Source: an uncultured Nitrospira sp.
GTDB lineage: Bacteria; Nitrospirota; Nitrospiria; Nitrospirales; Nitrospiraceae
DNA length: 64,000 nucleotides
NCBI GenBank assembly: GCA_902500805.1
Contig: CABVSA010000004.1
Location: forward strand, 1-64,000
Direction: 5' to 3'
Part shown: positions 60,793 through 62,565 of the stretch, piece by piece
How positions within the stretch are numbered: the stretch's first letter is position 1
Layout: each line of letters opens with the position of its first letter
Position numbers and translations under genes: made by a program
The notes under the pieces: generated by a model
The model's input: only the letters and a program-made list of their open reading frames with translations
Databases searched by the model: none
What the model was told of the DNA's origin: nothing

Positions 60793-60813
60793 CCTCCCCT
60801 TCGTAAGGGGAGG
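60793..60813. repeat. Short inverted-repeat module, copy A
   Basis: CCTCCCCTTCGTAAGGGGAGG is a near-perfect hairpin (CCTCCCCTT/AAGGGGAGG) in the gap after mutS2. It shares its arms with the repeats at 60889 and 61350 and is followed by GAGGTGGGGTCGAG, as in the other copies. Confidence 0.75.
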
Positions 60814-60888
60814 AGAGGTGGGGTCGAGTCTCTGCAGGCCGGTGCACGCTTGTGTGCATGGCCTTTAAGTCTTCGACCTCCCCGTTCC

Positions 60889-60963
60889 TCTCCTTACGAA
60901 GGAGGGGGCAAGATGGTGGCCGGTTCAGATTCCTCCCCTTTGTAAGGGGAGGTGAGGAGGGGG
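60889..60963. repeat. Inverted-repeat module, copy B (left of the DUF559 gene)
   Basis: It begins CTCCTTACGAAGGAG, continues GGGCAAGATGGTGGC, then has the hairpin TCCTCCCCTTTGTAAGGGG and GGTGAGGAGGGG. The same succession, with few differences, recurs at 61350-61430 on the other side of the DUF559 gene. The two hairpins and the constant GGGCAAGATGGTGGC linker form the module. Confidence 0.8.
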
Positions 60964-60970
60964 CGATCGT

Positions 60971-61405
60971 ATGCCGTATGCGAAACGAGGGACGCCGGAC
61001 TTCCTGCCTCTGAAACGACGACTGCGCTCAAATATGACGGAGGCCGAGCAGCGTCTCTGGGCTTGCTTGCGGCTCCGGCAGTTCCACGGGTTGAAGTTCC
61101 GGCGGCAGCATAGCATCGGTCCGTACATCGTGGACTTCTATTGCCAGGAACGGGCGCTCGTGATCGAAGTGGATGGAGAGACCCATGCTGAGGAGGAGCA
61201 GATATTGAAGGACCGGGAGCGAGATCGCTATTTGGAGTCGCTCGGGTTGTGCGTTGCACGGTACCAGAACCGCGATATCCTGATGAACCTCGACGGCGTG
61301 ATCGAGGATCTATCGCGGCGACTGAAGACGGCCTCTACCTCCCCCACCCCCTCCTTACAAAGGAGGGGCAAGATGGTGGCTGATTCAGAGTCCTCCCCTT
61401 TGTAA
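60971..61405 (+). CDS. DUF559 endonuclease-like protein
   Basis: 144 residues. Core of the DUF559/Vsr-like fold: M-T-E-A-E-Q-R-L-W near 22-30, F-R-R-Q-H-S-I-G-P-Y-I-V-D-F-Y at 43-57 and V-I-E-V-D-G-E-T-H near 66-75, the predicted Asp/Glu catalytic residues of a PD-(D/E)XK-type nuclease. The last 25 residues (S-P-T-P-S-L-Q-R-R-G-K-M-V-A) are encoded by repeat copy C and are not part of the fold, so the natural end may have been replaced. The gene is bracketed by repeat copies B and C. The protein may be involved in their spread, but its biochemical role is unproven. Confidence 0.8.
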   Translation: MPYAKRGTPDFLPLKRRLRSNMTEAEQRLWACLRLRQFHGLKFRRQHSIGPYIVDFYCQERALVIEVDGETHAEEEQILKDRERDRYLESLGLCVARYQNRDILMNLDGVIEDLSRRLKTASTSPTPSLQRRGKMVADSESSPL

Positions 61406-61430
61406 GGGGAGGTTGGGTGGGGTCGAACGT
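61350..61430. repeat. Inverted-repeat module, copy C (right of the DUF559 gene)
   Basis: CTCCTTACAAAGGAGGGGC, AAGATGGTGGC, TTCAGAGTCCTCCCCTTTG and TAAGGGGAGG follow in the same order as in copy B. It overlaps the 3' end of the DUF559 gene, and GGTGGGGTCGA after it matches copy A. A further half hairpin (CCCCTCCTGACAAAGGAG) follows at about 61444-61461. Confidence 0.8.
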
Positions 61431-61473
61431 TAGCGTTCCCCCTTCCCCTCCTGACAAAGGAGTGCATGACCCG

Positions 61474-61563: not shown

Positions 61564-61783
61564 TCCAGTAGCCAACCATGTTTCGTCTCCGGTGCATAGT
61601 CGATCAGCAGCACCAAGCGCTTGTCCTGATCTCCGGATGAGAGGAGAAAGCTGGGGTGAGGGTGTGTGTTTGGTTGGATAGATGGCTGCTCGATTCCTGC
61701 AGGAGTGCGAGTCGGCGCTTTCATTGACAGTGTACGGAGATATGACGTACGGTACATCCTGTGGGTGTTACGCGGGAGGGACT

Positions 61784-62086
61784 ATGCCGACGATTGCGAA
61801 GAAAAAATCTCGGAAAGGTAGTGCAAGACTGGATGTGCGCTTGCGACCCGACAAGAAGGCCTTGATCGAAGAAGCTGCCACGCTTTCCGGGAAGACGATC
61901 AGTGAGTATGTGGTCTCAACACTTCTGCAGCAATCGACAGAGGTTCTCCAACGGCATCGGCATATCCGTCTTTCCGATCGCGATCGCGATCAATTTCTCA
62001 CTTTGCTGGATGCTTCGGATGAACCGAGTGCTACGCTCACCCGAGCGGTGCGGAAGTACAAGCAGGTAGTGGGGACAAAGCGGTGA
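61784..62086 (+). CDS. tacA: DUF1778 antitoxin (TacA-like)
   Basis: 100 residues from the ATG at 61784; earlier in-frame starts lack conserved residues. R-L-D-V-R-L-R-P-D-K-K-A-L-I-E-E-A-A near 13-30 is the ribbon-helix-helix of DUF1778, and the C-terminal part (L-L-D-A-S-D-E-P-S-A-T-L-T-R-A) is the toxin-wrapping tail. Antitoxin and toxin overlap (GTGA at 62083-62086). A TTGACA box at 61724-61729 and TGTAC/GTACA arms at 61731 and 61751 upstream suggest an autoregulated promoter. Confidence 0.88.
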   Translation: MPTIAKKKSRKGSARLDVRLRPDKKALIEEAATLSGKTISEYVVSTLLQQSTEVLQRHRHIRLSDRDRDQFLTLLDASDEPSATLTRAVRKYKQVVGTKR

Positions 62087-62565
62087 TTGTTGTGCCATTG
62101 AGCGATCGTCACGATCGCTCGCAGTTCGATTGTGGAGAGCCGGCTCTCAATCTCTTCTTGCAACGGTACGCCGGTCAGCACGACCGCCGTGGGTTTGGCC
62201 GGACCTATGTTGCGGTTTCTGAGAGAGCTGTCGCCATCAGCGGATACTACAGTATCTCCAGCGGGTCGATTGCATTTGAAACGGTTCCCGAGAATCTTCC
62301 CCGTCATCCAGTGCCGATCGTTCTCTTGGGCCGACTTGCCGTTGATCGGCGGTTCCAGTCTCAAGGAGTGGGCGGGTTGCTGTTAGTGGATGCCTTGCGT
62401 CGCGCACAACGTGCGGCTGACGAATTGGGAATCTACGCGGTTGCTGTGGAAGCGCTTTCCGATCGAGCGAAATCCTTCTATGTCAAATTCGGTTTTCGGG
62501 CGTTGACCGACGATCGCTTGCATCTCTATCTGCCGATCAAGGTTGTGCGCCGACTTCATCTGTGA
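62083..62565 (+). CDS. tacT: GNAT acetyltransferase toxin (TacT-like)
   Basis: 160 residues starting at a GTG overlapping the antitoxin stop. F-D-C-G-E-P-A-L-N-L-F-L near 16-27 is the typical TacT start, the acetyl-CoA motif is L-A-V-D-R-R-F-Q-S-Q-G-V-G-G-L-L near 86-101, and F-Y-V-K-F-G-F-R is the C-terminal strand pair of the fold. Such toxins acetylate the amino group of aminoacyl-tRNAs and stop translation. The pair with DUF1778 upstream is the canonical arrangement. Confidence 0.9.
   Translation: MIVVPLSDRHDRSQFDCGEPALNLFLQRYAGQHDRRGFGRTYVAVSERAVAISGYYSISSGSIAFETVPENLPRHPVPIVLLGRLAVDRRFQSQGVGGLLLVDALRRAQRAADELGIYAVAVEALSDRAKSFYVKFGFRALTDDRLHLYLPIKVVRRLHL

Follow-up and report, generated by a model that had tools for sequence, protein, structure and literature searches.

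The window, a stretch of 64,000 nucleotides of forward-strand DNA from an uncultured Nitrospira sp. (assembly GCA_902500805.1, contig CABVSA010000004.1), contains near its end a gene for a DUF559 nuclease that is set among CT-rich palindromes. Judged from sequence comparisons, the locus is a head-to-tail tandem of three putative elements with fixed polarity, the middle one of which carries the DUF559 gene. We consider it probable that this is a cluster of small, palindrome-ended mobile elements moved by a Vsr-like DUF559 nuclease through cutting and repair copying. Gene-plus-ends units occur in several phyla and are present or absent between relatives, and therefore have the appearance of very small mobile elements of a family not yet described. 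That the unit is mobile or once was (perhaps recently), and that it comes in an autonomous form bearing DUF559 and in forms that are non-autonomous, appears largely supported by the comparisons; DUF559 as the moving enzyme, its cut substrate and the copying route are parts that we infer. The features of the cluster were delimited as follows.

60793..60907, + strand, putative gene-less element 1 (left end A1, core, right end B1); size and grammar match solo elements of genomes G009, G088 and G117
60793..60823 and 60875..60907, + strand, ends A1 and B1 of gene-less element 1
60908..60931, + strand, linker 1 (24 bp), left of the full-length element; 20 positions identical to linker 2
60932..61368, + strand, putative full-length element (DUF559 gene between left end A2 and right end B2); ends and polarity as in dispersed solo copies and other DUF559 loci
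60932..60962, + strand, left end A2; its hairpin covers 60932-60952 and its box ends at 60962
60971..61405, + strand, gene of 144 codons for the DUF559 nuclease; its frame crosses right end B2 and linker 2 and has its stop inside hairpin A3
61335..61368, + strand, right end B2 (box and hairpin)
61369..61391, + strand, linker 2 (23 bp), right of the full-length element; 20 positions identical to linker 1
61392..61462, + strand, putative gene-less element 3 (left end A3, core, right end B3), which is short and decayed
61392..61422 and 61438..61462, + strand, ends A3 and B3 of gene-less element 3

The hairpin CCTCCCCTTnnnAAGGGGAGG was found as an exact match at 60793, 60932 and 61392, with 0.01 matches expected by chance. 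Of the mirror-type hairpins CCCCTCCTTnnnAAGGAGGGG, the one at 61348 is exact, that at 60887 has one mismatch and that at 61445 has three. In the 4.3-Mb genome both types were confined to the locus of its only DUF559 gene, apart from a single hairpin on contig 1 that has two mismatches and lacks the element's box. From the comparison of solo copies, the left half of an element reads hairpin A (arms CCTCCCC/GGGGAGG), nn, box AGGnGGGG, TAGA and core, and the right half reads TCTA or TCGA, box CCTCCCC, nn and hairpin B (arms CCCCTCC/GGAGGGG); each box is the mirror of the arm sequence in the hairpin at the opposite end. Spacing in the solo elements of G009, G088 and G117 was 105–109 bp. Many DUF559 loci have imperfect inverted terminal repeats of about 40 bp (56–71 bp in Deinococcus), and the inverted ends of the window element are imperfect because its two ends differ. 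The cores of the gene-less elements showed no RNA structure, their folding z averaging about +0.3. The positions shared by the two linkers may go back to an old duplication of the target, or be left from a tandem duplication that took in both the element and its linker.

The hairpins had been described in an initial annotation of the window and were all recovered, but their grouping changed. The two near-identical modules proposed there can be aligned (98 bp, 85% identity), but each corresponds to the B-linker-A junction of neighbouring elements and not to a unit. The third hairpin, at 60793, is the left end of the element that runs to 60907; what was called a half copy, at 61444, is the decayed right end of the element starting at 61392. 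Between the supposed flanking modules the gene does lie, but its inner hairpins are best read as the ends of its own element and the outer ones as belonging to neighbouring gene-less elements. Its last codons do fall within the right module, with the stop codon (61403-61405) inside the 61392 hairpin (A3), but that module is itself a junction.

The gene product matched PF04480 with an E value of 3e-33 and 114 bits (Pfam gathering cut-off 20.6). Residues D55, E66, D68 and H72 were invariant in an alignment of ten sequences. Superposition of an AlphaFold model (ten sequences, mean pLDDT 78.5, pTM 0.72) gave Z 15.7 (root-mean-square deviation (rmsd) 1.2, 94 aligned) with 3hrl, a solved gonococcal DUF559 protein; Z 12.0 (rmsd 2.9, 96 aligned) with 3r3p, the homing endonuclease I-Bth0305I in its catalytic domain; and Z 10.7 (rmsd 2.1, 99 aligned) with 1cw0, the Vsr protein of E. 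coli. The nuclease had already been annotated as Vsr-like; its predicted fold is a Vsr-like PD-(D/E)XK fold, close to that of I-Bth0305I, and suggests an enzyme that nicks or cuts DNA and is akin to a homing endonuclease. From the model, nuclease activity of the window protein is expected. Assignment to a defence system was rejected, as PADLOC matches were weak or partial only, the best being to part of DpdF.

For the association of gene and ends, 77 DUF559 loci were collected, 63 from the window's phylum and 14 from others, most by DUF559 score alone and a few for their hairpins. Controls were 231 random 315-bp anchors within the same loci. The phylum sample comprised 198 genomes, 81 of them with DUF559; other phyla were sampled via genome contigs and plasmid-collection matches only. 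In an automatic scan, CT-rich hairpins stood on both sides of DUF559 at 54 of the 77 loci, on one side at 19 and on neither at 4. The same scan returned both sides for 1/231 control anchors, one side for 16/231 and none for 214/231. At the 30 best-scoring phylum loci, CT-rich hairpin density within 250 bp of the domain was 29 times that farther out, compared with only 1.4 times for other hairpins. Ten more loci from cyanobacteria, Deinococcus and alpha- and gammaproteobacteria had CT-rich hairpins on one or both sides; so did those of Bacteroidota, Pseudomonas, Sphaerotilus, Neisseria and E. coli, though more decayed and with some exceptions. Hairpin sequence co-varied with the DUF559 protein (Mantel r 0.38, P 0.001; r 0.32 for pairs below 65% identity), compared with r 0.08 (P 0.09) for the 60 bp immediately outside the ends. 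Among loci with both ends, the five whose proteins are nearest to that of the window gene carried the window hairpin type or a one-base variant.

Two further cases were noted. In E. coli (L108, L109) decayed copies of a CCCTCACCCCAACCCTCTCCC palindrome come after the DUF559 gene (probably ycjD), which suggests a settled, immobile relic. In Sinorhizobium sp. K101 (L110:3345-3520) the gene is followed by a long palindrome in two copies, inverted to one another, that looks similar to the known RIME repeats.

Dispersed copies were sought with the hairpin CTCCCCTTnnnAAGGGGAG, which occurred in 40 of the 198 phylum genomes; the reversed pattern was nearly absent. DUF559 was present in 31/40 genomes with CTCCCCTTnnnAAGGGGAG and in 50/158 others (odds ratio (OR) 7.4, P 2e-7, kinship ignored), and with complete genomes only in 30/35 and 41/125 (OR 12.3, P 2e-8, kinship likewise ignored). 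The Leptospirillum-like genome G065, an order-level relative of the window genome, held 90 CTCCCCTTnnnAAGGGGAG matches and four DUF559 matches. Solo copies that were sampled were mostly two-ended A-core-B pairs with fixed polarity and nearly identical ends. In G065, two-ended copies (L162-L171) had near-identical ends around cores of 30–70 bp that were mutually unrelated, so that simple internal deletion of a DUF559 element offers no explanation for them. In G026, many of 13 DUF559 matches were 84–97% identical in differing surroundings; identity ended at or near the hairpins in several copy pairs, and three copies carried an extra small hairpin unit within the right end. G088, a genome without DUF559 match, had a complete HicAB toxin-antitoxin pair, apparently as cargo, between A and B ends that lie 815 bp apart (L155:4595-5431), which indicates that the core is exchangeable.

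Such exchangeable cores, with HicAB between two ends where DUF559 is missing, would suit a second reading, in which the ends were moved in trans by another enzyme (IS200/IS605, RAYT or another transposase) and DUF559 is a cargo or retention gene. IS200/IS605 elements have hairpin ends and make no target duplication, and the present elements are reminiscent of both features. This reading is unlikely, if worth serious weighing. Nine hairpin genomes lacked Y1_Tnp and all nine had DUF559; no Y1_Tnp match was present in G065 with its 90 hairpins, in G173, G081, G187 and G026, or in others; and over the phylum hairpins and Y1_Tnp were unassociated (OR 1.5, P 0.43, Y1_Tnp being the only transposase family covered). 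Movement by Y1/RAYT is weakened by these nine genomes and the missing association, and Y1/RAYT acting in trans was rejected as a general explanation, since hairpin hosts free of Y1_Tnp include the richest one. DUF559 also recurs between such ends in many phyla.

For presence and absence at orthologous sites, pyrG, kdsA and ABC-transporter operon labels were assigned by eye in the relatives. The pyrG-kdsA spacer was short and without hairpin in G243, contained a single right-type end in G249 and G248, a single left-type end in G245 and one hairpin in G081, and held a hairpin plus a two-ended copy of window type in G241 and a full DUF559 element in G065. In a probable ABC-transporter operon, G173 and G249 carried a DUF559 element of window type where G065, G243, G081, G244 and G248 had only a hairpin-free spacer of about 24–30 bp. 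The hpa operon on Deinococcus plasmids had a spacer of 33 bp in D. ficus and 12 bp in D. deserti, and the gene was absent from this site in D. radiodurans; D. proteolyticus had an element with 56-bp inverted ends, which was found again in D. wulumuqiensis with its gene decayed. Between paaD and paaZ, an element was present in D. psychrotolerans and an 83-bp spacer in Deinococcus sp. QL22. The inverted ends at the Deinococcus loci L270 and L272 (56–71 bp in all) extend outward into locus-specific sequence, which looks like an inverted copying of the DNA at their flanks. At five further loci (L027, L038, L041, L042 and L045) the DUF559 frame was open both ways into an apparent HsdS gene, so that the whole unit, palindromes included, would be translated in frame. 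These HsdS-embedded units came from several lineages, follow the same FDPV(R/H) motif and were confirmed by Pfam Methylase_S in four of the five cases.

Downstream of mutS2, the spacer proved too diverged in relatives to be aligned and gave no empty site for the window's own element. A TacA-like antitoxin and GNAT toxin pair (61682-62565) directly adjoins the element cluster in the window; G193 and G177 have neither this pair nor the elements downstream of mutS2. The exact window hairpin was absent from viral contigs and DUF559 relatives appeared in only three phage records, on which grounds viral carriage of the element was rejected. The plasmid collection contained no close DNA relative and one weak partial match only.

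DUF559 could instead be a free-standing homing endonuclease that entered pre-existing palindromes, the repeats being its targets. Its fold is close to that of I-Bth0305I, single-end states exist, and at the place of one solo element of the Leptospirillum-like G065 the sister genomes G247 and G248 have a single hairpin of another family. That the repeats are targets and nothing else is nevertheless quite improbable, as insertions were seen where relatives have a hairpin-free operon spacer of 24–30 bp or, in Deinococcus, a spacer of 12–34 bp, and gene-less copies retain the polarity of left and right ends. Least probable is that the palindromes are ordinary hairpins, serving transcription termination or mRNA stability, that happen to surround small orphan genes: gene-adjacent hairpins are common and the right one often sits at the stop codon, but copies occur upstream as well as downstream and have no T-run (the grounds on which terminators were rejected), enrichment near DUF559 is 29-fold against 1.4-fold for other hairpins, and the palindromes co-vary with the protein and are gained or lost together with the gene.

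In the preferred reading of a DUF559-moved element, a full-length member consists of one DUF559 nuclease gene between two inward-facing palindromic ends. Gene-less copies have only the two ends around a short variable core and would probably be served in trans. What the nuclease recognises, and nicks or cuts, would be the hairpins at the ends or palindromes like them at a target site, after which host repair or replication could copy the element into the break. Such a process would have more in common with homing, or with the way in which REP-type repeats are copied, than with cut-and-paste transposition and its target duplication.

Several observations weigh against this reading. The co-occurrence statistic treats genomes as independent of phylogeny, nine hairpin genomes had no DUF559 match (five of these nearly complete), and 4/77 DUF559 loci were without hairpin in the scan. 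A site with one end could have arisen by deletion from a full element and not by insertion. Empty sites, proposed as a check in the initial annotation, were found in Leptospirillum-like and Deinococcus genomes; the target duplications proposed alongside them were not visible there, with no constant duplication at sites with empty relatives, where the spacers have diverged. They are too diverged to give base-exact junctions, and no base-exact empty site was found, the window's own element included. The expected nuclease activity is a prediction from the fold.

The initial proposal of a nuclease-linked REP-type element is supported in part (a gene between ends, gene-less copies, empty sites and co-occurrence), with the nuclease as the putative driver of the spread, and loses its division into modules. 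Counting copies with and without the gene placed the ends of the window genome only at DUF559 and revealed gene-less dispersed copies in relatives. Repeats unrelated to DUF559 and without sign of mobility, the outcome named there as contrary, were not what was seen: association was clear (OR 7.4, P 2e-7), and orthologous sites differed by presence and absence. The initial annotation took the link to be not established, and in the open-access literature (subscription papers being outside the scope) no report connecting DUF559 to palindromic repeats or mobility was found.

Short palindromic repeats fill the intergenic DNA of many bacteria, and some families, such as CGTC REPs, have no known mover (PMC3733652). 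DUF559 is a common nuclease family of unknown function, and the link provides a testable candidate enzyme for the origin and spread of orphan repeats; leftover ends of the element family would lie scattered as such repeats. It would also explain the patchy distribution of DUF559, its presence in operon spacers and its in-frame position within HsdS genes. On the wider proposal, that DUF559 nucleases of several phyla are autonomous movers of a class of palindrome-ended elements, act through the cutting of palindromes and not through a known transposase chemistry, and are the missing partner of many orphan repeat families, we lean neither way.

Among known systems, I-Bth0305I (EDxHD) and Vsr share the nuclease fold of the window DUF559. 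Unlike I-Bth0305I, DUF559 lies outside self-splicing introns as far as seen, has palindromic ends and occupies multiple sites per genome; empty alleles exist, and some copies are in frame inside HsdS. Miniature inverted-repeat transposable elements (MITEs) resemble the gene-less copies in being short with conserved inverted ends, but here the ends are self-complementary hairpins with a box, no target duplication was seen and cores are unrelated among copies. IS200/IS605 elements share subterminal hairpins, the lack of a visible target duplication and tiny size, but the present element has no Y1 transposase gene, and its two different hairpin ends have matching boxes. CGTC REPs and RIME, which have no known moving enzyme, resemble the element in being palindromic intergenic repeats. 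CGTC REPs carry CGTC or a variant as a tag at one end and are described by Di Nocera et al. as palindromic repeats without any dedicated transposase (PMC3733652); the window ends have no CGTC tag at the hairpin foot. Closest are REP/REPIN sequences with RAYT (TnpA-REP), or 'REPtrons', which share a small gene between palindromic repeats, gene-less dispersed pairs of opposite orientation (here A-core-B pairs), a repeat type specific to the gene type and single-hairpin states. They differ in that the enzyme here is a Vsr-like PD-(D/E)XK protein (DUF559) and not HUH/Y1 (PF01797), that window ends and aligned solo copies have no GTAG at the hairpin foot and carry TAGA inside the box, that the arms are CT/GA-rich with a mirrored box, and that several hosts, such as G065, lack Y1_Tnp. 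The element works like a REP/RAYT system but departs from it in two defining features, enzyme class and GTAG tag, and the family has an even chance of ranking as a separate class when the enzyme's part in it has been examined.
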